From the NCBI RefSeq assembly GCF_964204865.1, contig NC_135259.1, forward strand, positions 9,000,974 through 9,064,973: a stretch of 64,000 nucleotides of DNA, written 5' to 3'. A program made the position numbers and the translations under genes. Numbering within the stretch: the stretch's first letter is position 1; each line of letters starts with the position of its first letter. The notes under the pieces were generated by a model. The model was given only the letters and a program-made list of their open reading frames with translations. It searched no databases and was not told where the DNA came from. Below are positions 250-61,409 of the stretch, piece by piece. Source of the stretch: Styela clava. Taxonomy: Eukaryota; Chordata; Ascidiacea; Stolidobranchia; Styelidae.

Positions 250-956
250 GGCGGAATTTTCAAAAAATCATCGTTGTCAAGAATTTCTGGATGTTGAACT
301 AAATGATAGATATGCACCGCATACCATGAGATGGTAAGAAATAACTGAGATTGATTTGTGCCTGCTCTTGATAGAAATATTATATTAAAAATTATTAATT
401 CATCGAACATTTTTCCGCAGTTTGTATAATTTGAAGTTGATTGTTGAGGTAAAATATCAATTTTATCTCAACTCCAACATATCATCATTCATGGGAAAAA
501 TAATAATGTGCTTATACCGTATATACACTAACATGATCCTTGTGATTTTGTAAAGGTTCGAATGTACGAACATGGTTCCCTCAACATACTCAAATACGAC
601 TTGTCCACTAAGATGTAGAGATCCTGAAACAAATCAGTTTCTACCTCTTTCAAGTTTCCGACAGCTGCCTGTATTTGCATGTGAAAGTTTTGAGGTCAGG
701 AGAAATGGAAAAATTTTCAAAGAATCTGTTGCAATTGTAAAAGGGTGCAGGTGAATTAGTTTTTACTCAACATTTTTTTGGTTGAAGTATTTTAACATTG
801 TAAAAAGTAAATAGGGATTTCTTAAAAAACAAGTCCACTACATTTCAATTAACACTACAGGATAAGCTATCAATTTTAATTTATTATTTTTTCATTTTAT
901 CTAGTTGTGTGGAAGCTGCAACTGCAACTAGTAATACATATAGCGTCATGTGTTGA
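250..956 (+). CDS. IL-17-like secreted cytokine, copy 1 (5' end outside window)
   Basis: Three coding exons are visible: 250-333, 556-750 and 905-956, with the stop TGA at 954-956. The first begins in phase 2 with E-F-S-K and one Cys, followed by the motif RYAPHT, the equivalent of NGFAPY in the other copies. The core exon has F-E-C, N-T-T-C-P-L-R-C-R-DP, then F-A-C-E-S-F, V-R-R-N-G-K and K-G-C at the donor. The last exon completes a C-S-C-V ending and adds a short Ala/Thr/Ser tail that itself ends in Cys. All joins keep frame (donors gtaaga and gtgaat; acceptors cag, aag and tag). The signal-peptide exons must lie before base 1. The pattern of a pre-core aromatic-Pro motif, E/T-x-C-x(3)-C and a terminal C-x-C matches the IL-17 fold (family knowledge). 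A secreted ligand role is inferred. AU-rich elements follow the stop. Confidence 0.72.
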
Positions 957-3383
957 TAACAAAGAAATGATATTACAACGAACACATGCAACGTAGCTCT
1001 GGATAACTATGACGAACGCACAAATATTTTCCATTTTTATGTTAAAGATTTTTATTTAAAAATTTATATTTTTATATTAATATTTCATTTATTTATTTAT
1101 CATTATGCAATTTTATTCACATTATATTTATTTTTTATTGACGAATACTGCATACACGATGGGTTGCAATATTTCTACGGGAAAATTGTGCAATATATGC
1201 AATAGTATTCGAAAATTGCTAATTTATTTACAAAGAAATGTACTCTTTTAGTCTATACAAGTATTTTATTTATTTAATCAATCTTTTGCACTCAAAAATA
1301 TTTTAAAAATGTTATATTTTTTAGTATCTTCATAATAAAAAGTTTTATTAATATTTATTTAACAGTTTACTTCCATTGTAATAAACATTTATATATTGAG
1401 CAGAAATATCATTTGTATTGTAATTAACTGCAGTGAAATCAGGAGGATTTATCGTAAAAAATAAACTGAGGGCACGTGTTAGAACTTATACTATTAATAT
1501 CTTATTCACTAGTGCTACTATATATTAAACATAATAGCTTGTGAAATAGAACAACTGCATCCGCAAGCAGAAAGTTCCATAATCGAATATCGGTTAGAAT
1601 GGTTTAAATAACAAGATATTAGTGCTCAAATATACGGTCACGTAGGCCACAACAAAGTAGTACGGGTATCAATTCGGTACTCATAGTCTTCAAGACTTCG
1701 ACTGACCACCAGAACGCGAAAACCTCCACACGCTGTGTAATTTTTAATTTTTATGACGGGATCACACATGCATTAAATACCGTATACCACACAGGCCGCA
1801 GGTATTTTTGAAACAAATAAAAGTAATAGCCTTCTAGCGACAACGAAAATACATTAGTTGGTACAGTCGTTCTGAAGTAGATCGTTTTGAAACCTTTACA
1901 AAGATCTCAAATTGCGTGTTCCTCGTCATTACTTTGCAAATCACGAAAGAAGCGTCTAATGACATCATTTATTATTACTTTAACAAGAAACTCTTCTCCT
2001 CCTATTTATTCTAATGCATTTGAAGAACATATGTTTATTTGAAAGTGTATATGTATATATATTATTTTTTTCCTTATTTATGTACTTACATATTCATAAC
2101 ATATAAATATATATATATATATCCAATTGGCATAATCAAAGACAGTCAAAGATATGTTTAATCGTAGGAAAAAAATCAAGTGTCATTTGCTTAATCATTG
2201 ATTCTTTATTACGATCTGGTGCATACTACCGAATCTTGTTTGCCAAATATCATCATGCTTTAAAAGAATTTTTCCACACTTCTTAATAACTCCCATAACG
2301 CGATAGGACATGCTTCTTCTCTTTTGTTATAATTCAGAACGTTTCATTACTAACTAAAAGTGATCAATTTCACCCGACAATGAACAGGGAGGCATAGACA
2401 CGGCCATTTAGTATGTATATGATCACAAAACAAAATGTTTATTCCATATCACAGATAGTATAGGAGGATATAATATCTATTCGCATTGTCAAGAAAGCAA
2501 ATTATGAACTTTAGATACAATAATAAACAACGGATGATTGTTGACGATATGATTCGCCTCTAGTGAAATCGTTTGTATTCCCCAAAGCGCAATTATTTCA
2601 ACTAAATATGCTTGTTGCATCACCACGAATTTTAAATGCCACTATTGCTTTCAGGGAGTAATTAGACGACATTGGTTTCGAATGCAATCAACACGTAAAT
2701 GTTATTCACGTTCTACGTGACGAATAAGATACTGAGATGACATACGTCAAGTTTTCAGCAGTTTTTATCAACGCAGTTTGTTGCAAGATTTGAATGTACC
2801 CGAATTACTTACTTTGTTATAAAGACGTTTGTCACGAGGTGTTCTAAATTGAATGAAAGGTATCCAATTCAGATTGTTTTCCTGTATTAAAATATTATAA
2901 AATGGAATATAATGAAAAGTTCAAAAAATAACGATCTACATTCTACACAAACATCGTTTCAATTTAATTCATTTTAAATATGCGTCAACATGAACATGCA
3001 TTCTAAAAATATTGAAAATAACAAAGATGATAGCTAAATGGATATTTTTTTTATAAATTGTTGTTGAAAATCACGTTGTGAATTAACTTGGATGGCGTTT
3101 TGTGATGGCATATTTCTCGTTTTTCATGCTGCTGTCATACAGAGAGTTCAGAAGAATTTCAGATCAAATTGCATGCGCAATCCCAGGAGTGTCATTCGTA
3201 ATGCTTTGTAGAAACCTGCAGTACCAATCGAAGTTGCGATTACGTAATTTGGAAAGTACCTTCCAAGATATTATACGTAGGGAATATTGGTTTTCCTGTA
3301 TCAAAACAATATTTTTCCAAATTAACTTATACTCCGGTAAAAACTTGGATATTACTAAAGGTAAATATGGGAAAAAGTTTCTG
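957..3383. other. Intergenic stretch between copies 1 and 2
   Basis: Apart from the AU-rich elements at its start and an AT dinucleotide run near 2107-2121, I see nothing here. Open frames in this stretch are short and lack splice-site context or a recognisable motif. Confidence 0.5.
1087..1276 (+). promoter_or_regulatory. AU-rich elements downstream of copy 1
   Basis: Three overlapping ATTTA pentamers (1087-1100) and a further TTATTTATT (1266-1274) lie 130-320 bases after the stop of copy 1. UUAUUUAUU nonamers are known destabilising signals of cytokine mRNAs. Whether the transcript extends this far is not visible. Confidence 0.4.
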
Positions 3384-3391
3384 TATAAATA
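3384..3391 (+). promoter_or_regulatory. TATA box of copy 2
   Basis: TATAAATA sits 88 bases before the ATG at 3479. The same spacing recurs at copies 5, 6 and 9, which supports its use and suggests a 5' leader of about 55-65 bases. Confidence 0.45.
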
Positions 3392-3478
3392 ACACTCGCG
3401 CGCTAATGAGAAATGTAAGAAATCTGACCAGTGTGTTGAAGAAAAGGAGAATTTACTTTGGAGAAAAGACAAAGAAAC

Positions 3479-4711
3479 ATGAAGATCTCATTTATTAGCA
3501 CAGCCGTAAGTTTTATAATTTTTGTTAGATCTCAAATATATTTGTTCTAATATACGCATTGTGTTGTTTAAAACTTTCCGATTTCTTTTTTTCACAGACA
3601 AAAATCTTTACAATGATTATTACTATGATACACTTTTTTGGACACAACACATTAGCATTCGATCCTGAGTAAGTTGTAATTGTATTATCTACTTTCTTGT
3701 GATTTATATCAAATTAAACAGGTATTACTTTGATGTACAAAACTGTTATTACGTGTTTTTAACTTTTTTCAAATATATTGATTTTAGCTCTGAATTTTCA
3801 AAACTGTACGATTGCAAGCATTTGGAAACGTTGGATATTGAATATAACAATGGATTTGCTCCCTACACCCTGCAATGGTAAGTAAAACAAAATAAATTAC
3901 AAATGTTGTTTTTTAGAAGTAACACTACAAGTGCAGCAATCAAAATACGAAAAATGAAAAATTCAACTCAGAATATAATATATAAGAAATAAAGTTGCGC
4001 AAATGCTCTACCTGTAATCTTTAATGCTAATATTTTCAGGATTGATTGTGGACGCAATATCTCTCCTTCAATGTATTCCAACACAACATGTTCTACAAGA
4101 TGTCAAAGATCCTTCTACTAATCAGTTTTTATCCGAAATATATCAACAGCAACCGATTCTTGTTTGTGAAACTTTTCAAATCCGAAAAAGAGGACAAATT
4201 TCAAAAATTAGAATTAAACTGGCCAAGGGCTGCAAGTAAAACATTTTATTTTTTGCTTATTTTTCTTATGTGATTCTATCTAAAAGCTGGCAATGGGACT
4301 GGTAATAAAACTAAAATATATAAAATTAGAATATAAATATGTCCTAACCCTAACCTGGTACACATACCGCTGGAGTACCATATTTTTAACATTTTAACCC
4401 AGTTTTCTCTCTCACTTAGTGTTTTTTTTCTGGTAGGGAAAATCTGATGTTACTGCTAATTATCAGATATGCTTGCTTATAAAACACATTTTAAGCAGTA
4501 GGAAAGATATCAAGATAAAATTATTTTAATTAAGTCTAGTTTCTATTTTAATTTCATAAAAATTTAGATGTAGAAAAGTCTAAATCTCTAAATTCTTACA
4601 CACTATATATCAAGTAGCAATTAATAAATTATTTGAATTTAAAAGAAATCTTTTTCCAGGTGTGTCAGATATTCTGACGAATACAGAGATAATATTGAAA
4701 TTGACTGCTAA
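3479..4711 (+). pseudogene. IL-17-like cytokine, copy 2, with a frameshift in the core exon
   Basis: Five exons: 3479-3505, 3598-3668, 3788-3877, 4040-4235 and 4660-4711 (stop TAA 4709-4711). Exons 1-2 give a signal peptide whose hydrophobic core ends in L-A-F-DP. Exon 3 has S-E-F-S-K, one Cys and NGFAPYTLQW. Exon 4 opens with I-D-C and N-T-T-C-S-T-R-C in frame. Directly after the second Cys of that pair (near 4104) there is one base too many compared with the other copies. The expected K-DP-S-T-N-Q...A-K-G-C-K continues in another frame, and the first frame stops a few codons later. Exon 5 continues correctly from the downstream frame with K-C-V and a 17-residue acidic tail. All splice sites are intact. 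This is either a recent pseudogene or a single-base sequence error or polymorphism. The intact splice sites, TATA box and AU-rich element argue that any loss is young. Confidence 0.75.
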
Positions 4712-7309: not shown

Positions 7310-8502
7310 ATGGCAAACTTAAAAATCCAGTTAAGGGTAAGTCAAGATAATTCTGAGCCTAAATGTCATATCTCGGGCCCTAAACCTACCTCGAAAGCTT
7401 TTAATATATTATTCCTAAAGAATTTCTACTAATCACAGCAAATAGTTCAAAATTTATTCAAATTATACTCGATTTTTTACAGTTATAATACCGAGTACAA
7501 TGATCAATAAATCGGAGCAATTTTGTCGTGACATAGTCGATAAAATTTAATGCACAGTAATCAAATGTTTATTTTATCGTCTTATTGAGACAGTAGATAT
7601 CTTCAAATGTTCAAGTCGGTAAATGGAAATATAAACCTATTTTTTTATATTTAGATTTCTACTATTTTCACCATTTGCGTCTTGAGCATATCAGCATTTG
7701 ACCCCGAGTAAGAGTCTAAATATTATCTAAACTTAATTTCTAAACGTGAGGATTTCATAATTATAAATCAAAAATACTTTTATTGTTGAACTTCCAAATC
7801 GTAATTCCTCAAATAGATATGAATAGAATTAGAAATACTATATATTTAATTTATAAATCCATTTTTCTATTACTTTTTCACACAAACTTAATCTACTGTC
7901 ACATTTTACGTTAACAGTTCAGAATTTTTAAACACGCACAAATGCAAAGTTGTCGAAACGGAATCAGTGACCAATGGATTTGCAACTTATTACGTAGAAA
8001 AGTAAGTGAAATATCTTCTAATACCATTTTATACGTATTTGCAATATCATTGTATATCATAGCCCAAAGTAGCTCAATTACTTAATGCTTTCAGAATTGA
8101 ATGTAGAAATCTTTCACCATCATTGTTTGTAAACGCGACATGTTCATCTGCAAGATGTCAGGACCCTCAAAACGGCAAACTTCTGTCTGGTAGAGAATAC
8201 AAACCAGAAAAAGTAGTCTACGTGGAACATTTTGGAAGCCGAAACGTATCGATTACACAAACATTGACAGTTGCATGCAGGTGTTTACTTATATTTATAT
8301 TGGTAATATTCCATGCTTCTGGAATGGTTTCTCACTAACATCCCGAATAATTTTGAAAATAAAAATAATAATGTTATTTGAAACGACAAAAAGTTAAAAC
8401 AAAAGGATTAATCCAAATTTTATATTTACTCATTGAAGATGCGTGAAAGTTGATAACTTGCGTAGCCAGGAATTTGTAGGAAGGGGACAAAGAAGGGGAT
8501 AA
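7310..8502 (+). CDS. IL-17-like secreted cytokine, copy 3
   Basis: Exons 7310-7336, 7655-7707, 7918-8001, 8095-8280 and 8439-8502 give about 137 codons with intron phases 0, 2, 2, 2. Exons 1-2 encode a short signal peptide (MANLKIQLR then a hydrophobic stretch ending SISAFDP). Exon 3 has S-E-F, one Cys and NGFATYYVEK. Exon 4 has I-E-C, the N-A-T-C-S-S-A-R-C-Q-DP signature, Y-K-P-E-K-V-V-Y-V-E, and ends V-A-C-R. The seventh Cys seen in some copies is Tyr here. Exon 5 uses the acceptor gaag at 8435-8438 and begins C-V-K, with a basic tail. If the weak donor (gtgttt) at 8281 is not used, read-through gives C-L-L-I and a hydrophobic end closed by TAA at 8336-8338, a possible alternative C-terminus. 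The word gcgtagccag inside exon 5 also occurs near 39.94 kb, so the tail may be repeat-derived. Confidence 0.75.
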
Positions 8503-11374: not shown

Positions 11375-12883
11375 ATGGAAAGGTCATGTTTACAAGTAAG
11401 GATTATTATCAACAGTATCTAAATTAAATTATAATATTTAAATTTAAACTATTGACTAGCATGTTAGAAATTTAAAATGCTTAATTTAAAAAAGCTAACT
11501 GACTGAAGTATCTGGTTTTACTTTTTGTTGCAGATTTTTGCGACATTGCTTCTTCTTTACGCAATAGTGCCATCAACACCAGCGTCCGGTACTGAGTAAG
11601 TATATTATTTCATGTATTCAAGTGTTGTCATGACCAAATTCGTTATGCTCAAATAATTCAAGTTGATATTTGGATTTGCAATTTTAATAATATATTTACA
11701 TACAATACCACACTATCCAGCTCAAATCGGATGAACGTAGGCTACATTCATACAACGGGAAATTGATAAATATATTCAATCAATTTCGACGTCATCTTCT
11801 TCATTGTTTCAAAACTCAGATAAGACTTATTGTTTAACAAATCTAAATAGTTTCATTTTATTACAGCTTTCCGTTGTCTTCTGCTCACGAATGCTTAGTA
11901 ACACATACACATAGACGTGTAAACGGATTTGCTCCTTACTACACAAAACAGTGAGTTTTTTTCCTAATTTAATTTTTTAGTTTAAAAGTTTATTTGTCAG
12001 AACATTCTTCTTTCTTCATCAAAAATGGTTGTTGGTAGTTTCACAAGATTTTCTGTTAGATATTATTTATACAATGTAGAGATTTTTGCCAAGGAACTTT
12101 CTAAGAAAAAAAGGTGTCAAAAATAAACTTTCGCTTTGATAGAATCTCTCTCTTCGAATTTTAATTTGACAGTTTTGATCTAACTTGTTCCAAGTCTTTT
12201 GTCAACCGCTACTTACTGGCATCTTTGACTCATTTTTCACATAAATACACAGTTCCTACAGTGTCTGTTGACGCCTTCATTTCTCCCATCTGATAATAGC
12301 CTAGAACTTCAAGTTAAGCAAATCAGTAAATATAACTACAAAAATAAATTTTTTAGAATTAAATGCAAGCATTTTGAATTTACAAACGCAACATGCTCTT
12401 CCACTTGTCGAGATCCTCGGACGGGAAAACTGCTGTCAAAGAAAAAATATCGTCCGGACCCAATTTCTTGTGTTCAAACTTTTGACAGCAGAATTGAAGG
12501 AAAAATAGAGCTTTCCGTAACAATTTCATGCAGGTGAAAAATTGAACTTATATATTTATATAAGCTCGCCTATTCCTAAAGATGAGGGTAAATAAATTTG
12601 GAAGTGAATCGTATTATTTATATCAATATTAGGCAATATTGAAATCATAAAATGCTAGCTTCCTAATTTTTAAAATATTTATTTAATTAGTTAAATATTG
12701 AGCAACAATAAAGTTGCCATAATAAAAACTTAATGTATTCAATTACTTCGGGATACTAGATGCATTAAACGGGGAAAACAAACAAAACAAAAGCATGGAA
12801 GAAAGCAAAAGACAAGAACTGGCCAAAGAAAGAACGAAAAAAAAAAGCAAAAACAAAAAATCATAAATGAACCATATTTCTAG
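11375..12883 (+). CDS. IL-17-like secreted cytokine, copy 4, with long basic tail
   Basis: Exons 11375-11395, 11534-11595, 11867-11950, 12357-12533 and 12760-12883 give about 155 codons, phases 0, 2, 2, 2. Exon 1 has seven codons (MERSCLQ). Exon 2 is a hydrophobic signal segment ending T-P-A-S-G-T. Exon 3 has one Cys and NGFAPYYTK. The core exon has I-K-C, N-A-T-C-S-S-T-C-R-DP, T-G-K-L-L-S, an extra Cys in I-S-C-V-Q-T-F, E-G-K-I, and ends I-S-C-R. Exon 5 starts C-I-K-R-G-K and continues with a 41-residue tail very rich in Lys and Gln. Its acceptor (actag, 12755-12759) is supported by frame and by the R-C-I junction. A second acceptor (tttag at 12953) would give R-L-N and lose the final Cys, so I prefer the first. 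The basic tail might bind sulphated matrix polymers (inference). Confidence 0.72.
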
Positions 12884-17850: not shown

Positions 17851-19955
17851 ATGGAATATTGTGCCGCTCAACGAGTAACGAAGGTAATGTTTGAATTCAA
17901 ATATAACTTACATTTTGTGCAGTATAATACAATATGTATGAGTATTTTACGGATATGATATTAAAGAATGAGGAAATCAATTTATCACCTAATTGCAAAT
18001 AGTTTGTCTTGGTAAAATATGTATGAAAATATGTTTTATTATCTAAAAATATCGTCATTATTGTTACAAAATTCATACAATACAAACAAAGTAATCGGAA
18101 CAATAATAAACAATTTTCACAAAAAATTGTTGATTCTGTAGTTTAACTTAAAAAATAATTTATGGATAAAACTTAATTTGTGCTTTCATTCAATGATAGA
18201 CCTAGATAGAACCAAAGACATTTACAGTATAATATAATTTTTCTTATATATGATATTTTTTACTACGAATACCTCTCTATAAGTTTTACTATTTTACTGT
18301 TTCACTATTATACTTTAGAGGAAGTTTGTAATATTCACTGAGATCGTTAATATTATATGAATAGTAATATTATTATTATCTCTTATTTTGTGAACATCTT
18401 TCCTTTATTATATATACATAAATATATATTTGTGTTTCAGATCGTCAAACGCACAATTGTCTTCGTATTATGTCTTTTCTTCGTGTTACATGTGACTACG
18501 TGTTTTGATCCAGAGTGAGTACGCTGACTTATATACATTTTTGTTTTAATAATTTGCACTAGATTTCTTCGTCCAATCCTGCGCTCTAAGGTTTTTGAGT
18601 GAGAAGAAAAATGTATTCAATAAACCGTTGAATGTAGTATACGAAATAGGGCTGTGACAGAATTATAACTTATTCCACAAAGTTGTCACCTGGCAATTAA
18701 TTTTTCATTCAAAGGAAGGGCAAAATCGCAGTTTTGTCACCAATCTTATATTTTCTAATGCTGCTTTTGTACAAAAGATATTTAATAAAAATGTAAAATT
18801 AAAAACAAGCCTTCTCATGTTTGAACTTTAATTTTATATTGAAGTCATCGTTTTTTCTATTTTAGATCTGAATTTTCCAAAGCGCATAACTGTAAAATAA
18901 TTGACAACGGTACTCAGCGGGATGGATTTGCACCATACACTGTATTTGTGTAAGCACTTTAGTTTGTAAAGTACATACCATACGGTACTGTAGTGTACAG
19001 GTACTTGTTCGATATCAGATTGATACAATAACTCCAAGACGAAAAAGTTTACACTCGAAAAACCTAACATATTTCCAATTATTAACCATTTATGTACCTT
19101 AGTTAAAATTTATAAATTCACAGATTTTAGTTATTTCAGCTCTTTAATTTTTATGCGTCTCTGCACCGATATTTGTCTACTGAAAGCATATTACAGAAAT
19201 AAAAAACCAGATTTTGAATTGTAAAATATATAATATTATTTCTAGTGAGGGATTCAATATATTAAATAGTCCAAATATATCCACGTGAACAAATGCCTTA
19301 TTTACATGTATTTCTCGGGAAATTATGAACAAAATAATAAAATAATTTTTATGTTTTCAGAATCGAATGCCAAAACATTTCGCCTTCAGTATACACGGAG
19401 GCGACATGTTGGTTGAAATGTCGACAACCTCGAGTAAGAAGAAATTTACCACTAACAAGATTTCGACCTAAACCTATTTATTCCTACATGGTGTTTCAAG
19501 TGCGACGAGGTGGAAAATTGTTCACGCATACCGAGAGAATAATAAGAGCTTGCAGGTCAGTTAAATTTATGACTTTAACTTATTTTACCAAAAGTCTAAG
19601 CAAACTTCAAGCAAGTAGAGAAAAAACTAGCAATTATAGATAATTGAATTATTTTGCGAAAATTTTATTTATGATTTTCACGTTGAAACTGTGATAAAAT
19701 CTTAATCTTATTATCTCGTAATGAATAAACAGAATGTCATCTAATGAGATAACAACCACTTCGTTGTTGTCTTCTAGATAAAAAATTAAGAAATTTCTGT
19801 AAAACCAAGCAGGGTTTGCATTGCATACATCCTTACAAATAAAGTAAAATCACTATTTCAGATGTGTTATAACTAAAAGACAAGATCGCTGGAGAATCTT
19901 TAAAACACTCGATGAAAGAACTTTCAGTTTACCAACCGTGGGGGTTCAATCGTAA
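17851..19955 (+). CDS. IL-17-like secreted cytokine, copy 5
   Basis: Exons 17851-17883, 18441-18514, 18866-18949, 19361-19555 and 19862-19955 give about 159 codons, phases 0, 2, 2, 2. Exon 1 has 11 codons, the longest first exon in the family. Exon 2 is strongly hydrophobic and ends T-T-C-F-DP. Exon 3 has S-E-F-S-K, one Cys and DGFAPYTVFV. The core exon is the most IL-17-like: I-E-C, N-I-S-P-S-V-Y-T-E-A-T-C-W-L-K-C, then P-K-P-I, F-Q-V-R-R-G-G-K and ending R-A-C-R. This fits the IL-17 pattern Y-P-x-x-I-x-E-A-x-C...C...V-P-I...V-L-R-R...G-C-x-C-V. The DP after the Cys pair is changed to QP and the seventh Cys is Tyr. Exon 5 starts C-V-I-T-K-R and has a 27-residue tail with Trp and several Arg. 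Confidence 0.8.
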
Positions 19956-23600: not shown

Positions 23601-25125
23601 TTAGCGATTGATCTCCACAGTTGGTGTGGTGCTGTCTACTTCGTTTCCTGAGTGATCATTTTGTAAATAACCATCATGTTTTTTTGTCTTTACGCACCTG
23701 ATTTGGGGAAAAAATAGAACCATTACAATAACTCTAAAATTAAGCTTTGTCGATCAGCAAATTTTTTGAGGAATATTATAAAAGCTCATTTTATAGACTA
23801 AAGCACATGTGAATATGCCAAGATGTTCTTTATTCTTTAAGTAAATGGCAATATATTCACGACATATTTTACGAATACACGAAAAATTAAAATAGTAGTT
23901 GCTTGAGAGGAGTAAAGTTGGACAACTCAATTTTAGTAGATCAAAGACCGGTCTTACCTGCATGCCTGAGTTACTCTGACAGTGTGGCTGTATTCTTTAT
24001 CATCTTTTCTGACTGTTAATTCAACGAGTGATTCAATGGGTACTGGGTGATACTTCTTTAGAGTAAGACTTCGTTTACTTCGTGGATCTTTGCAAAACTT
24101 CCAACATTTTCCGTCAACGAAAATACTTGGTGAGGTGTTGACACATTCGATACTGTAAAATTTAAGGTAAAATATAAATACAATGAAACTTTTTAAATAT
24201 TAAGAAGTTGATGTTTTGTAAACAATTATAAACAAGTACGTATTTCGAATCCAAGACATTCATTACGTGTTTTATGATAGCTGTAATATCTGCATTTTTG
24301 TTTTATTGGAAGCAAAGTAAAGCGGAAGGTGGTGAAAAATAAAAGTGAAGCTAAATCTATTACTTTTGAGAATATTCAATGTGCCACTAAAATATAGCGA
24401 ATAAAAAGTAAATAATTTATTTGCTCAAAATACCCTCATTGTATACACGACCCAAAAATTACCTTCCAGAACAAGCAAAAACACTCACATTTACTTGAAT
24501 TAAAATTTTCATACTAAATAATTGGACTCCGTGGAAAATAATAAATTGAGTTACTCACATTTCCAGTTTATAAGGAGCAAACCCATCTCGTTTCACAATT
24601 CTGTCTATAATATTGCACTTATGATCTTTCGCGAACTGTGATCTACAAAATAAATGTTCAAATACTTTAAGCATATTATTAGTCGTATGGATACTGCAGT
24701 TTCAACATTCAACAATTGCTATTCAAATGCTGCTAGTCAGTCGCAATATTGATTGATTAACCTGAGAAAAAATCGCAAAGAGGCTTTTTGATCACGTATT
24801 ACGATATATAGGCTTGTATAAATCAATTTTATGAAAAAATACACTATATAGTAGTGATATTCTGCGATTCTGTACTTTGTATGTATAAAATGTACTTATG
24901 TGCTACATACTTACTCGGGATCAAATGCTTTCGCTCCGGTTATCAAATGTAATAATTCGCAAGTCATTGCAAATATTGCAAGTGTCTTGAACACCTAAAA
25001 GTAAGTTAGGAACGAGTTATTAACTTGTTTACATTATACTATATGAAAAAATATTTAAAGTTTTAACCTAAGAATAATTGTACAAAATCTTTACTTACTT
25101 TTGGTGACAACAATTTAGCTGGCAT
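23601..25125 (-). CDS. IL-17-like secreted cytokine, copy 6
   Basis: Minus-strand exons 25125-25099, 24994-24915, 24642-24559, 24152-23958 and 23697-23601 give about 160 codons, phases 0, 2, 2, 2. Exon 1 is MPAKLLSPK. Exon 2 is hydrophobic and ends G-A-K-A-F-DP, a good signal-peptide end. Exon 3 has S-Q-F-A-K, one Cys and DGFAPYKLE. The core exon has I-E-C, N-T-S-P-S-I-F, G-K-C-W-K-F-C-K-DP, Y-H-P-V-P-I-E, V-R-K-D-D-K and ends Q-A-C-R; the variable seventh Cys is absent. Exon 5 opens C-V-K-T-K-K and has a 31-residue hydrophilic end. A TATA box precedes the gene and an AU-rich element follows it. The gene converges with copy 5 and points away from copies 7 and 8. Confidence 0.8.
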
Positions 25126-36596: not shown

Positions 36597-38204
36597 ATGA
36601 AGAAGGTATTTGCATTAACGATAAAATTCAACTATTATCAGAAGTCAAAATTCAAAGTACTAACGTATTACTTGCTTTTAAGTCTACGGTAGACGAGTTA
36701 ATGTTTGAATTTATAACCTCCCAGTCGTAGGCAATTACCATAGATGCGCATTATTCGTACTATTAATTCAGTAATCTTAATTCATCTTTTTTGAATTCAG
36801 GTTTGTTGGTTTTCGTTTGGAGTTATTTTACTTGTTGTAGTAAGTGGTCCTGTAGAAGCTGCAAAGATGAGAAAAGGACTAACTTGTTTGTCGTGAGTAT
36901 ATTTCATGCAATAATTTTAAATCAAAACTTTAATTAAAGTATAAAGCAGATATTTATATATATATATATACATTGTAAATTTGGAAAAATAACTAACCCC
37001 GTTCATGAATATTGTTTTTGTACATGACCGAATAACAAAATTTAGCGATTGTTAAAACGATCTAAAATACCTATGCTTCAGACTGCAGCAAAAAATAGGT
37101 CAAATTGCAAAAGTTACGTTGAACTATTCCAATTTTGGAATACATTATCTTTTTTTATTATATAATAGAAAATATATCCGATGCTCAAACACGTAGCACT
37201 TTGGAAAACAATGATAATAAACATATTAATATTATTTTATTTTTATAGGAAAAGATTTATTAGAAAATACTGCACCTCAACTGATGAAGAAATCGAGAGA
37301 GATGAAAAGGGATTTGTACCTCATGAAATTAGAAAGTAAGTAATGTAGCCTACTTAATTTTAGTAAAATTGAAGTACTTGACACTAATAATTGATTCGCA
37401 AATGGCAAAGCATCCAACGGAAAACTTCGAGATCTTTAATCAGTATAGATATAAATAAATTTTATATTTCAAGATTTAAATTTTTATTTAATCGTTCAAA
37501 TACAGGTACGATTGCCGTAACTTGAATGTCACACAAATAATTGACAAACCATGCGATAAAAAATGTCGAGACCCTGTGACAAAAAAGAAGAAGCCTGGTA
37601 AATTATACAAGGTTGAAAGAATTTGTTATTACAGAGAGTATGAAAACAGAGACGGAAAAATTGAAAAAATAAAATTGACTGCTGGATGCAGGTGAGATAA
37701 TATTTTTCAAAACCTCAAAGTCAAATCTTCAGAAGACAAAATCTAAGGATTTCATAAAATGCGCGAAGTGTCCAATTGAAAGTTCTGTGCCTCATGTTAG
37801 ATACTTTGACACAGATACTTGTATAACTATTTGTTTGCATTTTACTGTCAACCGGGTGCATGGCACATATAGATAAAACTAGGCACAAAGTAGTTTCTGA
37901 TAGAATAATACACGCGTTCTATAAAATAATAGTTTCTGCAAATAAATTATGCGAATAAAACTATGTTCCCTTGACAAGCTCGTAAAATTTCGTTTTTCGG
38001 GCCGAATTTTTCATCAACGAATTTCAAGAGATACTGCTCTAATACTAAATTTGTACAAAATTATTAAATAATAAGGTTGTTAACATAATTATTTTTATAA
38101 GGTGAAAATTGAACACGCTTTTACGCAACGTCGAAATTGTCGAAACAAATATTACAAACACTTTTTATTTCTACAGATGCGTCAAGAGACGACAAAAATC
38201 ATGA
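36597..38204 (+). CDS. IL-17-like secreted cytokine, copy 8 (divergent)
   Basis: Exons 36597-36605, 36801-36892, 37249-37335, 37506-37691 and 38177-38204 give 133 codons, phases 0, 2, 2, 2. Exon 1 is only MKK, joined to V-C-W-F-S-F-G-V-I-L-L-V-V-V-S-G-P-V-E-A, a classical signal peptide. Exon 2 lacks the FDP end of the other copies and carries an extra Cys. Exon 3 has one Cys and K-G-F-V-P-H. The core exon has Y-D-C, N-V-T as a glycosylation site, K-P-C-D-K-K-C-R-DP, R-I-C-Y-Y-R, R-D-G-K-I-E-K and ends A-G-C-R. The last exon gives C-V-K-R-R-Q-K-S-stop. The DP and GK landmarks keep it in the family, while the rest is the most Lys-rich and diverged. It follows a strong TATA box and is followed by AU-rich elements. 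Confidence 0.78.
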
Positions 38205-38446: not shown

Positions 38447-40226
38447 TAAACATAAAGTGGTATCTCTAATTTGATTATTTTTTAATTTGGTACTTTCCTA
38501 CATTCGCATTTATAATTAATGTCCCAGAGCAAAATACAAAAGTCACTGAAAAGCAGTATTGTGGTTCCCTTGGATACGTAAAGTTAATTTGAATCCTTGC
38601 AACCCCGTACGATAACAAAATAATGTCGATAACGTTGAAAGCACTAAATGGCGACTTCTGTGCGCAAAAGTGGACAACTCACCGTGTCTAAACTTGAAAA
38701 CATTGACGGTTGATTAATTGACTAACACCGTTATATATGAAGAATGTATCTCTAGAGACATATCATATACCTCTATCAGAAACAGTTTTGAATGTTGTTG
38801 AGTTCTCGTGAAAACATATTAAACCGTATTGACTGTAACTTTTCGCTTTCCTGATCATTTATATTTTTTTGTACAATTTTGGTGCAAAACAGATTATATA
38901 GCAAAATTGACTAGTACTTTTATACATGCTTTCAGATGTATTATCCATTTTTATGCTTTGGAAACGTACATAACACTTTTTTATTATATACATTATTTTT
39001 TTTTATCATAGTATTGTTTCAAATTTTTAATTGATATGACCTGTGAATTTTTTTATTTAAATTGAAATACATTCACGCTGCTTTAAATCTATACCATTGG
39101 AAATATGGTCAAGATTATTTGAACAGTGCAAACATCGGTCCGATTCAACTCATTACATACGATGGTTGTGTTTACTTTACCTTGACCCAACTTCGTGGAA
39201 GACGACTGTCCTTATGTCATCGTCTAGCGGTCTGAATCGGGCATGCAAGAGAATTATTAGATCGGGCATGGAAAACAGTAATATATTATAGAAAGAATTC
39301 GAGTATCGAAAGTTCACTCTCCGGCGTCTTCGCTTAGCTATTTGCATCTCAGTGTAGTATTTTCGAGGTTAATTTTGGAATTTTTTTAAACAGAAATGGC
39401 TCTGCTGAGCTTGACAAGCCATTACATTCACTGCAAAAATTTACATTTTCCAAATTTTGTCTTCTGATGAGCCCTTTCCCCCAATATTTTGAAAACGCTC
39501 TGAGGGCAGGATAGTTGTTGTACAAAATTTACCGTACGCTATACATTTTTTTGGCACTTTAAAAACTAAAACAGTTTGTTATAACTTCTTGAAACGCAGT
39601 GTTCTTGAACTACGGGAACCGTTTTCGAACTAACTAAAGCTCAAAAGCGGGCGTAGCGTCAACGCTATCGGTAAGATACGGCGTTACAAACAGTCAAAAG
39701 TTGCCAGAGGCCTACTGAGAATCGATCTCTGACCACAAAAGGGGTCAAGGTCGCAGTTTTATTAACGACAGTCTAAGGCTCTCGCATGATCACAAAAATG
39801 AGTTTCCTGCAAAAAAGTCTTCTTGACCTTTGATGCACAAATTGCCTTGAAAACCTGAATCTTAGTCGCGCAAGAAAACAACACGGAATTTGAAACATTC
39901 CCTCGCTTACCTTCACAATAAATATCCGAGCCATAGGCGTAGCCAGTACTATCTGATTTTTTGTATTAAATAGGTTGAGGAAAAATGGATGTAAATACTT
40001 GCCAAGCGCTACATATTTGCAATAAATCCATTTAAACGCCACAAATATCGATAAAGGCTCATGCACACTTTCTCAAGCTGTAGTTCAGTGGTGGGCGCAG
40101 TAAGACGCAATCGATAAGCCATTACGTGAACGACCCTGCGACGAAACCACCTTGCAAAAATTGAAATGCGATCAAATGAATGAGTTTGTATAATCTTGAA
40201 AAACTCTATCACTTCAAGCTTTAAAA

Positions 40227-40640
40227 CTGAGGTCGACAAACTTGTGTCGTTCGCGGGCCAAAATTAAAGTCATTTGCGGGCCGCACATATTTTTAGAAAG
40301 TTTGAAACCGAGGGAATGGCTAATGAATCACATATTTTCACACAGATTTCAGTTAAATTTCAAGCAGCGTGCAAAGACTGAGTGTTTTCTGCGCCATTAA
40401 ACCATTTGCACTTAGCATCAACTTTTTACGTTTTGTTGCCATTTGTCTAATTATAATCAATTCATAGGCTCATTAAACGAGTGATTGTGAATTATATACT
40501 TGTCAGGTTATAATATAATTTAGTGTCTCTAAACAAATTCTGTTACGTAAAGAATATAATCGTCAAAACAGCTGTTAATATAATTCAGTGAAGCGTCGCG
40601 GACCGGATCTGTCCCGCGGGTCGTATTTTGCCGACCCCTG
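40227..40640. mobile_element. hAT-type miniature element
   Basis: Left end ctgaggtcgacaaac and right end gccgacccctg are imperfect inverted repeats, flanked on both sides by the exact 8-base duplication ctttaaaa (40219-40226 and 40641-40648). It is 414 bases with no transposase frame. Confidence 0.75.
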
Positions 40641-43254: not shown

Positions 43255-44531
43255 GTCTAGATTGAAGTTGTTCAAAAAATATATGATAGTATTTTATCAT
43301 GAATGATGATTATACCCCTTCCGGAATTTCTTCTATAGTACTACCAAAAGTTGATGAACCAAATATAACACAGGTGCAGTGAGGTACCCGTAATCCTCAT
43401 TTCCAAAGCTGTTTTAAGTATGTCTGGCGTGTTTTGTGCCTTTTTACAAATAAGACCGCTTATGCAATCTTACGCTTTGGAATTTTTAGTTATTTTCCTC
43501 AAGCCCTGCAGGATGTGGGGGCCATACACAACTCTACCGGAGGGTCAAATGTCTTTGCATGCCTCCATAGGTTGTTTTTCTATTGCAATTTTCAATTGCA
43601 TTATATTTCTTGGAATCACACTGTCACTGATATGTCGCCAGACTTCTGATATCTCCCCGTCTGCTATAGTTGTCCTGTGAATAAATAATAGGAAATTGAG
43701 ATTAGACGAATAGTTGAAAGTTTTGCTTTATGTCGGCTTAATTTCTTGATTGATATACTTACTATTTCTGCTATTGCCTCTTGTGCTGCAAGAGTCTCAC
43801 AATGCTAAATAAAGCAGTCTATATGATTCAGAATGGAAAAGCTAATAAATCCAATATCTCATGTTTTATTTAAAAAATATTTTACTGAATTTGGTATATA
43901 AACCAAAATTACAAGCATTCGTGGCTCCAAATACTTGAAAAAACAGACTATACAATATAGACCGGTATGAGTGAAATGTTAGGTGAACTTGTTAACACTT
44001 TGATTCAATACGCAAATAAAAGTGAATGCGTAATAGTATGTTACAATGAGCAGCAATCAACAATGAGTATATATCCTCACTGATTAAAAAAATCTAACTG
44101 GAGGTGCATGAACTATTTGAAACCATAAGGGGTAAGTAAATATGTAATTTCGGCAAATGGGCAACTACGTACCGTACTGAATTAATAACTTCGTAGTATT
44201 TGACAAAGGCTGGCTTTCCCACATGTACTTAACAGTGCGATGCCCGGGTGTGATATACAACAATAGTATTCACCTTACCTTTTACCGATTTCTTTTTACC
44301 CCAACTTTCAAAAATATCATTAAAATCGACAACAACTGTCAAAGCAGACACGAACACCATTCGTGCTACGCCTTGAAAGCAGCACACATCCGCTCGTTTT
44401 CGTCTCGTCAAGTATGTGCATTGGAGCGTGCTATCGAATACGATCTTCGGACAAAAATGCCGGAGTTGCGCATCATGTTGTTTAATGTCATTGCTGCAAC
44501 AAAGGACTCTAACAATTAGCATAGGCTAGAG

Positions 44532-45832
44532 CAGCGGTCGGCAACCTTTTTCAAGTGACGGACCGGTAAAGCTTGACCAAACTTTTGGCGGACCACCTTT
44601 ATACAAACGAACTAAGCTTATGCAATAAGTTATACGCATTAGGAAATTTATGTTGACAATATACTAAAAATGACGGTGATGCTATTTAATGTGATGTCTG
44701 TATTTGTTTGATGGCCATTAACTGTTCCCATATTCGAGATATGGTCGACATTGACACGCGTAACGTGTTTCTTACTTCCAGCCTATTTCGTTTTTGTAGT
44801 TATCAATATTGAAAACCAGGCCTCACATTAAGATTTCGGGAAAGTTAACAATGTTTTGTTGGGGAGATCTTAGTCGGACTGATGAGAGATATTCTTATAC
44901 GGGCGTAAAGAAAACAATCGACCCAGCATCATTGCGACATACTGACATGGCAATTGTGTATGAAATCAGACATGTTGCTCAATAGTGTTATGCAGTGGTC
45001 GGCAAACTTAATGTACTTGCGGGCCAAATATAAACATTTCTGGTAGCGCGCGGGCCGCAATATTTCCGCCTTCGAACAATCGCTACCATAATTAAACTTC
45101 AAATTATGGCGCATCCGCATTGCTACACTGCTATTGCTGTGTTGAAAGTCTGTCCCAATGAGATGTATATGTGGCGTTTCTTTATTATCCAACAATACAT
45201 TGTTTTTATATACTTATTATCAATGTGAAAGATGATGTTTTTATCACAATTCGTCGTCCAAATGATGCTCTATGACGAGTTCATAGAGTTCGTCAAATGA
45301 CGAGTTTAACATTGAAACCCTTAACAACTGCGATGCTGACTGGGCATATCAAGCAAACTGGTTTTGAAATGCGCAAGAAAAAAAAATATTTTTCCGTTCA
45401 AGCACTTTGGAATGGTCGACCCGCGTCGCTCCGTTTTCCAGACATTTTCAAATTTTAAAAATCAAAATTAACTCGAACGACATACAACCGACGCTACTTG
45501 TTACATAAGAAGCGCCGTACAGCAGCACTTGTCACCGCATAAACCCGTGTAGAGACAATATTAAATTTGAGATTAATTTTTGTTTTATTTATTAAATGTC
45601 GGGTCTTTCAAGGGCCGCAACAAATTAGCTCGCGGGCCGCATTTTTTCCGACCCCTGGTGTTGTGTTTGTCTGATTTACTGTTGGGTGCTGTTTTTTAGT
45701 CGTAGGGTTTGTGGTGAGATTGTGAAGGTTTTATTACGGCCTTGTCCGTTTTTGTGTCACCTCTCTGCGGACCGGCAGTAACCTTTCCGCGGACCGGCGA
45801 CCGCGGACCATAGGTCCCCAATTTGACCGCTT
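44532..45832. mobile_element. Older hAT-type element carrying a nested insertion
   Basis: The left end is cagcggtcggcaacc, and the right side has repeated gcggaccgg words and ends near gaccgctt, roughly complementary. No target duplication is preserved at the right. A second element (44993-45657) with its own duplication sits inside, which dates this one as older. Confidence 0.5.
44993..45657. mobile_element. hAT-type miniature element nested in another
   Basis: Ends cagtggtcggcaaac and ccgacccctg are inverted repeats flanked by gtgttatg / gtgttgtg (seven of eight). Sub-terminal cgggcc(gc) words are mirrored at both ends. It is 665 bases with no transposase frame. Confidence 0.72.
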
Positions 45833-46674
45833 CAAGCCCACGTACCTATGACCTAAACCAATCAAAAAAATTCCTAAGTAATTGTAATGTGTTGCTTCTT
45901 ACCGATGGTTCTCAACAAGCTGGGGTAGGTATTCTAGTTTTCGTTCGCCGACAATGCATATCTTAGCGCCGACGCAGAAGTGGTCTCTAAGACGACGGCC
46001 ACCGCGGTAAACTCCAAAACTAATCAAATCTTAAGAATACTGAACAATGACACAGAAATATTCAAAGAATCTTAATTATAAATAAATTATCCCATCGAAA
46101 ATAGCGTTTTTATATTTATGATTATTTCAAATGTGTAGATAAATTGTGCAGCAAAGATTAGATGATGCACCAATGCATCAGTATTCCAATTAGTAAGCAT
46201 TAAAAACTGTGGAAGACATTATTAAAATACAGTAGTACCAATATGACAGTGACAGATATAAAATTAAAAGAAAAAATAATGCATCTGGGTTTTTGGCTAG
46301 TGAGTCGGTAGGAGAGGTGCATCAGATTTTATTTGATAGAAAAGTTAATTTAAATGTATTAATGGTGAATATATTGTGATGCGAAGGTTGTACAATAACA
46401 GGACCTGAAAACATCGGTATAAATGACGATGAATATTTCAATTGTACAATTGTAATTCTATAGCAAAATACAGCTCTATAAATTTTACAAAAATTAGTAC
46501 GGTAAGTGGTTCCCAAAAATATATGTGTATTTTACATTTAAAAACCACGGATGTCTGGCAAACTGGTAATGTATAGAGATCCATTTTACATTTTGCGTCT
46601 ATCTATTGCATTGCGGTTCATTTCTGCATATCCTGAATAGCCAATAATATGCCAAAAAAATTCATTTGATGATA

Positions 46675-54722: not shown

Positions 54723-56252
54723 TTGTATTTGTGCTCTCACGCATATCTGCATAACTGCTCCTTACAATCTGGTAAACACATAGACCAGTTCAAATTCTCC
54801 AGAGTCCTTCCGTTGCCAAAAAAAGGAAATGCAAAGGATGTGAAAAAAAACTACCGACCAACCAGCTCACTTCCTGCATTTTCCAAAATTCTAGAAAAAA
54901 ACTTTGTACAAGAGACTCAACCATTTCCTAGACCAAAACAATTTATTCTATTCCCAGCAATTTGGCTTCCGCCAAAATTACTCAACATGTCATGCAACAT
55001 CCCTACTTGTCAGTAAAATTTTAGAAGGATTTGGAAAGAATGAGTATACTCTTAGTATGTTTTTGAACCTTTCCGCAAGCAACACTCCACTGCTATGGCT
55101 GCTAATGTTTTGGTACACAAACTTACCAAGGCTTTTGAAGGCAAACAACATGCAATTGGAATATTCCTTGATATTTCAAAAGCATTTGACACCATTGACC
55201 ATTCCATCCTTTTAAGTAAGCTCTATCACTATGGAATTAGAGGCGTCCCATTCAATTGGATCAGGAGCTACCTGCAAGACAGAAAACAAATTGTGCAATA
55301 TGACAACTCATTCTCTACAAATATTTGTGTCATGAAGCACGGAGTTCCACAAGGATCTTTACTTGGCCCATTATTTTTTCTAGCTTACATTAATGACATG
55401 TCCAGGTGTCTGAAATCCTCTGAGTCAATCATGTTTGCTGATGACACTGACTTGATTCTTCATGGGGAAAACCTTGAAGATCTGTTCACAGTTGCAAACT
55501 ACGAACTAGCCAACATTCATAGCTGGATGTTAGTTAATAAATTATCTCTTAATGCTAACAAGACTAAATTTGTATTATTCCATCCAAGCAAGCATAAAAG
55601 TGTGAGTTGTACAAAACCACTGCTGCTCAATGGCAATGAAATTGAAAGAGTGAAAGAAATAAAATTTCTAGGAGTTATCTTCGATGAAAATCTGTCTTGG
55701 AAATCACACATATTGCATGTTATTGGTAAAACAAAAAGAAACTTGGCAGTTGCTGCCAAAGTATCCCAGTGTGTTAATCAATCAGCTTTACTAGCAATGT
55801 TTCAATCATTACTACTCAGCCATATCCGATATTGTTGCTCTGTCTGGCTCCATGGTAATAAAACACTTGTCTCAAAATTGCAAAGTATTTGTAATAATTT
55901 TTTAAGAATTCTTTTTAGGAAAGTTAAACGTGAAAGTGTAAACCATTTCTATAAAAAGCTAAATATACTCAAAGTTGAAGATATAATGAAATTTGAAGTA
56001 TTATCATTAGTCCATGATTTCCATAACAATTCCTTGCCAAACTGCTTCGACGACATACTAACTAAAATTACTTCCAATCGAAGAAGTAGTTCCAACCTGT
56101 TCATACCTTTTATGAGTACATCTGTGAGCCAGCATGCCTTATGTTATACTGGGCCCAAGCTGTGGAATTCTCTCCCCTTGAATTTAAAGACATTGAAATC
56201 CAAAAAATCTTTTCAGAAAAAAGTCAAGTCCTACTTGGTATCAAAATATTAA
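54723..56252 (+). pseudogene. Reverse transcriptase of the LINE, frameshifted at its start
   Basis: The main frame, 55095-56252 (385 codons), carries the RT blocks in order: L-D-I-S-K-A-F-D-T-I-D-H, G-V-P-Q-G-S-L-L-G-P-L, and the catalytic F-A-D-D at 55434-55445. A thumb-like region ending W-N-S-L-P follows. Upstream, R-V-L-P-L-P-K-K-G and N-Y-R-P-T-S-S-L-P (54.80-54.90 kb) and Q-Q-F-G-F-R-Q-N-Y-S-T (54.95-55.0 kb) lie in other frames, so at least two frameshifts separate the fingers from the palm. It copies RNA at a nicked target in related active elements. This copy has no endonuclease and an interrupted N-terminal part, so it is inactive. The clade (jockey/CR1/L2-like) is a guess. Confidence 0.8.
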
Positions 56253-57035: not shown

Positions 57036-58034
57036 ATTATGCTGTGTCCTGCGTGTGTACAAAGTTTTTATCCTTGGTCGAATTTATGCTGTGTATAGCA
57101 TGCAAATGTGTAAGGGTTAGTGTGATGTTAATGACTAATGAAGATAATGGCATACATGTGTGTGGTTTGACCGACATCGAAAGGTTTTTGCATGGTTTGT
57201 GAACAATTTCTCTTGTGTCCCAACCACAATCTCTTCTTTCTCAGGTCTTTCAACTAGCAGTCTAATGATATTTAATTAATATTAATCAATATTTACACAA
57301 TTCAACAACTTCCACTCAAAGGTGTAGGGTAGTTTTCTATTGATTCCTTATTTGCAATCATTGAATATTGTACTCGCAGATATATTTTTCGTTTTTCAGG
57401 ACGTCATGATGATCAATTCAAATGCTATCTATGTCAACATGAAAGGTGTATACATCAACAAAACTTGCAGACTGATGAATCATCCGTGATGAATTTGAAC
57501 TGACCGCAGTGATCAACAACCTCAATTAAAGTTACTTGCCTATAATCCATGACCCTAGAAACTTTACTTGAACCTTAAACACCATATATATTCCCTTAAC
57601 CAATTTTCCTACCTCTGTATCATACCGCCCTAATTAATTTTAATTATGATTACCGGTACTGTTATTGATTAATAGTATTTAAAATAATTTGGACGTTATT
57701 TGGCTTGTTGTGGCTTCTATTTGATGAGTGAAGCAGGTCTAGCCCACCTCTTCATACATCCAACTTGGCAATTCTGATTGGGCAATTTGACATTAGGTGA
57801 CTCCAATTATAATCAGCTTGACGATATCTTTTGAGGAATACTTTTCTATCCACAATACATTACTCTTGTTGACTAATTAGGTATCCAATTTGGCAATCCT
57901 CATAAAATTATTAATTTGGTGTGGCAAAAGAATTTATTCATTTTTTTATTTTTTATTTGTTTGTATATTTTCGTTCCTTTTTACTTTTAAGTCTCGCTTT
58001 TTTCGCTTCCGACAGTATCATGTCTCGATGATTG

Positions 58035-58052
58035 TGTGTGTGTGTGTGTGAG
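58035..58052. repeat. (TG)n microsatellite
   Basis: About nine TG units within the LINE 3' region. It is simple sequence with no further signal. Confidence 0.7.
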
Positions 58053-58273
58053 TTTTTTTTTTACTTTTGGGTGAGCAAACACGTACTACTTCTTTTATCA
58101 ATACCTTTCCATCTAAAATCTGTACGTTTCAAACCTTATTCGAGGTTTTGTTCGCTTTCCCGATTCTATAATCAGTTACTTTTACTTTTGTTTTTATCTA
58201 TTTTTTTATCGTCTATTGCTGATTATGGAGTCGAAATAAACTTATACTTATACTTATACTTATACTAGCCAAA

Positions 58274-58427
58274 TTGCATCATATTGGCGTTTAAGGTCAG
58301 AGTTATAATTGGTTCAAAGGCTACCTATCAGGAAGGAAACAAGTAGTAATATACAATGATGTAGCATCCAGCACATACTGTAATTTGACTGTAGGCACAT
58401 TACAAGGTTCTATTTTGATTCCAGAAA
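58274..58427 (+). pseudogene. Older reverse transcriptase fragment
   Basis: One frame reads Y-N-W-F-K-G-Y-L-S-G-R-K-Q-V-V and then T-L-Q-G-S-I-L-I-P, corresponding to the W-x-x-S-Y-L-x-x-R-x-Q and G-V-P-Q-G-S blocks of LINE RTs, with an early in-frame stop and altered catalytic surroundings. It begins where the (TTATAC)n tail of the neighbouring LINE ends. Confidence 0.6.
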
Positions 58428-60001
58428 TATAGAAATAGACCAACTTTTATTTACTACAGTAAAAAATTCTAGTTTCCCCGGAAAATCTCAAATTTATACG
58501 GCGAAGCGCTGACAATCGATCAGTGAGTATAAATTACACATGTCTATGTAAATTTCAAAAATATGATATGAAAATAATCTCATAATTGTGAAATTATTCA
58601 AATCTGCCTTTTGGTTAATTGAATTTTGACAAGCTATATACTCGACCACTTAAATATAAAAAAAATCTTTTTTATCAGTCGAAGGTGAATTCGTTTTCTG
58701 TAATCAGTTTTAATATTTGAATATTGACAAAAGAAAAATAAAGAAAGTAGAAATTTTTATCCACGATAGAGTTCCGCTAACAAAGAGATAACATCTTTAA
58801 AAGCAAGAAAGTTTTCGTTTTATTCTCTCGTATGCGAAGTCGTTGTTGGTAACTTAGAAACCTTAACTTAACATATATATATATCTGAATTTGATTGCCC
58901 AACTAATTTATACCTTTCGATGTTTGTACGAGAGATGTAAAGGTCTGGATGAATAGATCATGTTGCATGCTAGGACCTTAGCACATCTAGCACAGGCTAA
59001 GCACAACCGAGAGAAGTGTGTATAGCAGCACCATCACATGATCTTGGCTGAAAGGTCGAGCTCGTCAATTTTTTTGCAATCAATATACTAAACCAGTTTT
59101 TGTATATTCAATTTTAAGTAACCTCATGTTTTTCAATTTTTTATTGACACTGCTACCAATACCATGGCAAAAAGCTCATTCACGTAAAGTTCTAATTCTT
59201 CAAGGTCCGTTCATAGAATTCATTTGTGAGAAATTCGTGTTATTGAAATTAATAGTATTCTACAAATTAATAAAAATCTCAGAATTATACGACGGCTCAG
59301 CTATACAATTACATACTTTATTGCATTTAAGATTTTTCATGTGCATCATGATTATTTGAATCATTTTCTAAAAAACTATACGGCCACCTCAACGAGAATG
59401 AGCACCACTGAAAGATTAATGAAGGGACATGCAAGAATAAATCAAAAAACAATGAAAACTTTGTCATGCCCACACAAGTACGTGGTAGCGAAGCCATAAT
59501 AGGTTTTTGATGTTTTCAACAATGAAAGAGTACACTGTATGAAAACTTACTGGAAAACTACTTCTATACTTTTGTAAATTTTGAGACAATTTCCAACTAG
59601 TCGCCAATTTCTCAAATTTTCCGTTGTCGTATATATATGTACAAATTTTGTATGGAAAACCGAATGGAGGGACTAAAGTGATCTATTTTCCTACAAGCAA
59701 CATTATGATGGTCAATAAAACCATCTCAGAATAATATCTGTCGAGCCACGGCTTATTCAACGAGTAAATTAAAGAATACTATGAAATAAATATAAAATTG
59801 TCTAGTTTGCCACAGCTGTTATTTATTTTCGCTGCAAATCATTAAAAAGATTAAACAGTAAAAACATCTTGGTTAGTAAAAAACAATCAAAAACATTTTT
59901 TTTTTGAAAAAACAATGATATGTGTTAAATGCATGAAATATATCTTAATGATATTTGCTGTTTCATCAATTCATTGGTCTTCGCTCAATTATGTATACAT
60001 A
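58428..60001. other. Intergenic stretch before copy 9
   Basis: AT-rich with no recognised gene. The frame at 59.13-59.36 kb is hydrophobic by composition only. The 3' end of the minus-strand copy 9 transcript should lie here. Confidence 0.4.
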
Positions 60002-61409
60002 TTATCTTTTCACACATCTGCAAAAAATAAATATATTATCTGAATCATAAAATTGGATAATGAACTGGTACATGTATACTTTTCAAGATCAAGTAGTTTC
60101 GATATTAATTAAAAATGAAAATGTACTTGATAAGAATTGATGGCCATTCATAAAGCAAACCATTGAATATCAAAACACTGAATGAAACAATCCTAGATTG
60201 GTTAAATGCCAAAAACATGTCAATCAAATATTTTTAGACTCGCTGTTAACTTGTCAGCCAGCTACAAACGATTACTTATCATGAAAACTTCAATCACGTA
60301 AAACAACAAAACTACATAAATATTATTGTTTTAGGTATTTATATCAATGAAGTAATTTAACTTGTGTACTTTTTGGAATGTTTGAAGTTTCATACCTGCA
60401 AGTATTTACTGATGTGATCGTCTCAGTTTCAACCCTATTGTTTTTTCGAACTTGAAAACTCATTTCGTATTCGACCTCTTCAGTTTTGTACCGTAATGAG
60501 CTGAAGTCTTTGCCAGTAACAGGATCTTTGCAACGTGAAGAACACTCCGCTCGTAGAAATATCGAAGGGTGTACATTACGAGGGCAACGAATCCTGAAGT
60601 TAAATTTATATATGTCGAAGCAGTGAGAATTTACTAATAATTAACAATAAAAAACATCAAATGAATACGTAGTTGCCAACCATCTAAACATGTTATCAAC
60701 CTGTTAGTAAAAATTACAATTACGGTTTTCTTTTTTTTTCTCCAATCATTGAAAATCAAAGCTGATTATGAAACAAATGAATGACTTCACATTTAATTGA
60801 TTCAAAAATACAAAACTTGACAAGATGTGTCAACAACTAATGCTCAAATGCATACCTATTTTATGATGCGAATGAAGAAAAGCAAGATTTTAATCATTTG
60901 TCTACTTTACAATTTTCTTTATACCGATAAAGAGTAGGCTACAAAATAATATCTTTATTCGAATCTAACACGTAGTCATATTACAAAAATGTACAAACCA
61001 ATTCAATGTTACTGGAACGAATAGGTTGTTGTCATATCTTGTTAATACAATGTAGCAAGAATTATCGTTGATGAATCTGAAAAATAATTTCAAATATATA
61101 GAATAATGATATATTACTACCTACAAAACATTTTCAAAATTTTCAATATTGCAAATTGAAACAGCTCAAATCCTAAATTTAAATGATCAAATACACTAGT
61201 AATAATTTACAAAAATAGGAAAATATACACAGATATATGTAATTGATACTTACTGATCTACACTCAATGCTTCACAGTACATGGAGAAAAGTAGGACTGT
61301 TGTCAAACATATCTGAAACACGAGGAATTTATAAAAAGTTCAAAATTTATTACTCATAGAAGATTTTATGAAAAGCCGTTCTTACCGTAGTGAATGAAAG
61401 TTTGTTCAT
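60002..61409 (-). CDS. IL-17-like secreted cytokine, copy 9
   Basis: Minus-strand exons 61409-61386, 61312-61254, 61076-60999, 60593-60396 and 60017-60002 give 124 codons, phases 0, 2, 2, 2. Exon 1 is MNKLSFTT. Exon 2 (I-C-L-T-T-V-L-L-F-S...C-E-A-L-S-V) completes a signal peptide but lacks FDP. Exon 3 has one Cys and N-L-F-V-P-V-T-L-N-W. The core exon has I-R-C, H-P-S-I-F-L-R-A-E-C-S-S-R-C-K-DP, T-G-K-D-F, F-Q-V-R-K-N-N-R and ends N-T-C-R. Here the R-A-E-C resembles the E-A-x-C of IL-17 closely. Exon 5 is just C-V-K-R-stop, behind the acceptor tttttgcag. The variable seventh Cys is absent. It stands about 22 kb from the nearest copy, beyond the channel gene and repeat island, so the family may continue outside the window. 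Confidence 0.78.

Follow-up and report, generated by a model that had tools for sequence, protein, structure and literature searches.

A tandem gene family in the tunicate Styela clava, probably a divergent branch of the IL-17 cytokine superfamily

IL-17 cytokine signalling is ancient and common to vertebrates and invertebrates. In the parts of the literature consulted, the sea urchin is credited with 35 IL-17 genes in 10 subfamilies, together with 2 receptors (PMC5457136), and many of these genes are linked in tandem arrays (PMC4517768); the mussel reference genome has 33 IL-17s (PMC8353272). Three IL-17s induced by lipopolysaccharide are given for Ciona (PMC8353272, PMC5465252), a table in the former paper listing 7 and 6, and a Ciona IL-17D-like gene is described as having four introns (PMC4517768). 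Among the open-licence papers listed, none is on the family presented here, which was found in a 64,000-nucleotide stretch (the window) of the Styela clava genome (376.6 Mb, 379 contigs) at C13:9000974-9064973. Nine loci, W1 to W9, lie within positions 250-61409 of the window.

We consider it highly probable that this tunicate family is a branch of the IL-17 cytokine superfamily that has diverged and expanded in tandem. What was observed is how the genes are built, the number of copies, their relationship in sequence and a predicted fold of partial extent. A preliminary description made from the sequence had called the loci IL-17-like, and profile similarity supports this at superfamily level, though below the Pfam cut-off. 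Among eight spliced window models, IL17 (PF06083) is the best Pfam family for four (W3, E 0.11; W5, E 0.0047; W6, E 0.032; W7, E 5.4e-4), all under the gathering score of 24 bits, with a top score of 20.7 bits for W7; the other four have no IL17 match in the Pfam search. Since the cut-off is not reached, we class the family as a branch of the IL-17 superfamily and not as a member of Pfam IL17. No NCBIfam family was found for any of the eight.

More sensitive comparisons used three alignments of the new family: A1 holds eight window members, and A4 (16 rows) and A6 (17 rows) were picked for diversity from the 54 places found genome-wide, leaving out near-identical copies, damaged copies and some further places. 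They were set against A2, seven ordinary IL-17s of the same genome (from eight loci examined among 32 PF06083 matches), whose profile recovers IL-17A, IL-17F and IL-25 in PDB. The hhalign scores against A2 are 30.7 for A1, 34.1 for A4 and 38.8 for A6, the last with a probability of 90.6% and E 1.3e-6 for one comparison, and exceeding all 200 of its shuffles. Shuffles with cysteine columns fixed, made for A1 and A6, reach at most 21.3 (150 of A1) and 20.1 (200 of A6), so the signal does not come from the cysteines alone. Taken by themselves, the A6 rows that lie outside the window score 40.2, and five outlying rows with fused exons score 30.8. Searched against 177635 PDB sequences, the A1 profile finds no match, A4 finds IL-17F only (E about 0.5), and A6 finds IL-17F first (E 0.019), with dynein next (0.47). 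The signal grows as the alignment widens, as homology predicts, with the caveat that A6 lacks tails that A4 kept, so that its higher score does not come from added rows alone. PF06083 itself matches 6 of the 16 A4 members (best E 3.8e-4; a bit score, 18.2, is given for a single member), none of six outlying copies and none of ten cysteine-fixed shuffles. Exon 4 of W5 and of W7 was folded by structure prediction, each giving a single-exon, partial fold; Foldseek alone returned nothing at E<=0.001 for these folds.

The order of landmarks parallels IL-17, as had been proposed: an SPW-like motif, AxC, C-x(3-4)-C, a C-x-DP-x-T-like stretch and a terminal C-x-C are common to both; two new rows have T or S in place of the proline of the SPW-like motif. 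From this proline to the first knot cysteine there are 21 residues in IL-17F and in all six ordinary IL-17s that have both landmarks; among 15 new members, 13 have 21-22 and the remaining two have 18 and 24. The second knot cysteine follows 4-5 residues later, and C-x-C another 40-47 residues on (42-53 in ordinary IL-17s). Both branches have a phase-2 intron between SPW and the knot cysteine. In ordinary genes it interrupts an arginine codon that follows the SPW motif (7/7 examined), whereas in the window genes it sits six codons upstream (5 versus 11 residues after the proline). A further intron of the window genes falls inside the terminal C-x-C, where ordinary loci read through; the window genes have an extra cysteine before the YPS-like stretch and lack the C-x-C-x2-C found in the ordinary IL-17s of this genome. 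Their intron number, four, is that of the Ciona IL-17D-like gene, compared here by its published description only.

Six cysteines are invariant in all eight aligned window mature domains (W2 left out). The four knot cysteines, C-x(3-4)-C plus the terminal C-x-C, are present in 16/16 rows of A4 and 16/17 of A6, the one other row stopping short of the final cysteine; these alignments exclude damaged copies, 9072k among them. Cys13 and Cys35 (W5 mature numbering) are additional relative to IL-17; they may pair with each other, and Cys13 may correspond to the CP cysteine of ordinary IL-17 genes. By analogy with IL-17, the knot disulfides are predicted at Cys48-Cys96 and Cys52-Cys98 in the same numbering. 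Three motifs of the preliminary description hold in outline and needed loosening: 'GFAPY' also occurs as RYAPH, GFATY, GLAPF, GFVPH and LFVPV; the C-x(2-3)-C-x-DP block is really spaced C-x(3-4)-C, its 'DP' being QP in W5 and NP in W7; and the C-x-C-V end is C-x-C-I in W4.

All nine proposed loci could be rebuilt with explicit exon coordinates. W1 (250-956, + strand) shows exons 3-5 (250-333, 556-750, 905-956); exons 1-2 fall to its left, and a likely exon 2 is seen close outside the window edge, near C13:9000.8 kb. W2 (3479-4711, +; exons 3479-3505, 3598-3668, 3788-3877, 4040-4235, 4660-4711) has a one-base frame break followed by stop codons in its 196-base exon 4, possibly marking a pseudogene, an allele or an assembly error. 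W3 (7310-8502, +; exons 7310-7336, 7655-7707, 7918-8001, 8095-8280, 8439-8502) is complete in frame and encodes 137 amino acids. W4 (11375-12883, +; exons 11375-11395, 11534-11595, 11867-11950, 12357-12533, 12760-12883; 155 amino acids) has no IL17 match, and W5 (17851-19955, +; exons 17851-17883, 18441-18514, 18866-18949, 19361-19555, 19862-19955) encodes 159 amino acids. On the minus strand lie W6 (23601-25125; exons 25125-25099, 24994-24915, 24642-24559, 24152-23958, 23697-23601; 160 amino acids) and W7 (28550-29835; exons 2-5 at 29835-29768, 29662-29579, 28894-28700, 28610-28550). W8 (36597-38204, +; exons 36597-36605, its end read by eye, 36801-36892, 37249-37335, 37506-37691, 38177-38204) is the least identical to W5 among aligned window members (22%) and has no IL17 match; neither has W9 (60002-61409, -; exons 61409-61386, 61312-61254, 61076-60999, 60593-60396, 60017-60002; 124 amino acids).

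The five-exon plan first proposed is seen at seven loci (W2-W6, W8 and W9); W1 runs past the window edge, and exon 1 of W7 was not found. Intron phases 0, 2, 2, 2 were borne out by exon lengths: junction 1/2 is phase 0 in 7/7 visible cases, 2/3 is phase 2 in 8/8 and 3/4 is phase 2 in 9/9, while 4/5 is phase 2 in the eight unbroken models and, read in the frame that its break leads into, in W2. AG precedes and GT follows every visible internal exon edge in the nine models. A few matches to other Pfam families were judged to be chance: chi-conotoxin for W4 (E 0.013, residues 5-38, in the signal-peptide region and the start of exon 3), E217_Gp32 for W3 (E 0.24), Ets1_N_flank (0.16) and GBBH-like_N (0.25) for one A4 member each, and Carlavirus C4 for one outlying copy (E 0.0061).

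The row of copies continues on both sides of the window, far beyond nine. A hidden Markov model (HMM) of exon 4, seeded with eight window members, finds many copies outside the window at domain E 1e-17 or better; this, with the six invariant cysteines, shows that the loci are not chance. HMM and protein searches combined give a row of 34 places over 269 kb (C13:8.962-9.231 Mb) and at least 54 places genome-wide: 44 on C13, 6 on C1 and 4 on C6. These counts are lower bounds and include broken, damaged and partial copies (W2, 9072k, 9132k, 9139k, 2690k and 8022k among them). They omit three weak HMM matches (domain E 0.17-0.54), one of which, at window 58890-58931 (+), resembles the start of exon 4 over 14 residues and is a putative right-group relic (domain E 0.17); a match on C14 was dropped (E 0.72). 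Repeat units in the left group are ~6 kb and mostly 92-96% identical. Those in the right group, of which W9 is the first member, are ~12.5 kb and up to ~98% identical, with two alternating gene types per unit. At C13:9076-9109 kb the two right-group exon-4 types alternate in ~12.5-kb units at ~98% identity.

Outlying copies are differently built. Two on C6 (12881638 and 12853742) lack introns and have a hydrophobic stretch at the N terminus; a C1 copy (9808002) has exons 3-5 fused; and of six copies at C13:8.01-8.04 Mb five have exons 3-5 fused and the sixth exons 4-5. Over the 3/4 and 4/5 junctions, the C6 pair and the C1 copy have the same residue count as the window models, which supports the exon joins of the latter, and all share seven residues from APY/APF to the next cysteine and the C-x-C end.

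The array resembles the reported sea urchin repertoire in large number and tandem arrangement, but the sea urchin genes are recognised as IL-17, whereas Pfam sees this second branch, with its 54 places, below cut-off only. By the same published counts, Ciona has several-fold fewer IL-17s. All 32 ordinary PF06083 matches lie outside the window and more than 5 kb from every one of the 54 places. These exon matches, one with internal stops, exceed the Ciona counts seen in print, and are clustered at C3:14.84-14.87, C3:2.19-2.23, C5:15.02-15.08 and C2:18.35-18.38 Mb.

As members of an IL-17 branch, the genes would encode a signal peptide in exons 1-2 and a mature domain of ~100 residues in exons 3-5, keeping the four IL-17 knot cysteines and the long beta hairpin between them and adding one cysteine pair. 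Hydrophobic N-terminal segments are present in family members and suggest secretion. By analogy with IL-17, the products may be dimeric cytokines acting on SEFIR-domain receptors, with a presumed immune role; the alternating right-group types might supply heterodimer partners. The genome contains seven SEFIR exon matches, on C4 and C5. They stand partly side by side (C5:17.29 and 19.48-19.50 Mb) and form an IL-17 receptor-like set.

The family might instead be an IL-17-fold scaffold retired from signalling and put to other use, for example in a basic effector that acts against microbes or binds glycosaminoglycans, in a protein of the tunic, or in a ligand for gamete or self recognition. Such a role would suit the basic tails of seven left-group copies (net +16 to +18 in 37-38 residues) and of W4 (net +14 in 38), the added cysteine pair, and the rapid turnover of copies, many repeat units being 91-98% identical. 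It would suit, too, the ratio of nonsynonymous to synonymous change in exon 4 (pN/pS), pooled over pairs, of 0.74 for 11 right copies and 0.62 for 7 left copies (9072k and 9133k excluded), values that indicate mild constraint. In a few close pairs amino-acid changes outnumber silent ones (e.g. 4 versus 0), with too few sites for a claim of positive selection. Retirement from signalling is nonetheless unlikely in our estimate: the four knot cysteines are kept throughout A4, tails are just two residues long in the right-group copies shown, and SEFIR matches are present in the genome.

Convergence of an unrelated cystine-knot secreted family on an IL-17-like form we judge very improbable. Individual Pfam matches are sub-threshold and cystine knots recur across several growth factor families, but the fixed-cysteine shuffles reveal signal beyond the cysteines, this signal climbs with wider alignments, Pfam offers no other knot family at E<=10, and the phase-2 intron is common to both branches. 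Least credible of all is that the tandem copies are mostly dead or unexpressed: W2 is out of frame, C13:9072k lacks knot cysteines, 9132k has an in-frame TGA and 9139k three stops, but of 28 exon-4 copies at 8.962-9.133 Mb 26 are open in frame and 25 also cysteine-complete, overall pN/pS is below 1, and splice sites are kept.

Elsewhere in the window, between W8 and W9, where the sequence is richer in GC, a 398-residue open frame at 55056-56252 (+) matches reverse transcriptase (PF00078, E 2.4e-25) and appears to be a retroelement. Inspection by eye also shows repeats at ~40200-40640 and 44525-45840 that contain 'gcgggccgc' and 'ggtcggcaa' and that we take to resemble hAT-type transposon ends. 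An Rfam scan of the window gave no match, and a COX1 search gave none in the assembly. On one strand of C9, cellulose-synthase and GH6 matches stand 2.0 kb apart; a cellulose synthase-GH6 fusion is a tunicate hallmark and is not known from other animals.

Under the IL-17 branch reading, the basic-tail copies would probably also bind glycosaminoglycans or tunic matrix, to judge from tail charge. Rapid turnover in tandem, units of two alternating genes, and basic tails together raise the rather doubtful prospect that the branch provides the tunic and pharynx with variable ligands for mucosal or self/non-self recognition, and not with a few hormone-like cytokines. With 54 places beside 32 ordinary matches, broken copies included, the branch outnumbers any IL-17 count per genome in the published accounts consulted (at most 35). 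Should the branch prove real, its scores below the cut-off of current profiles may have led to an undercount of IL-17 in tunicates, the sister group of vertebrates, and its many ligands beside few receptor matches would offer a system for asking how such arrays diversify.
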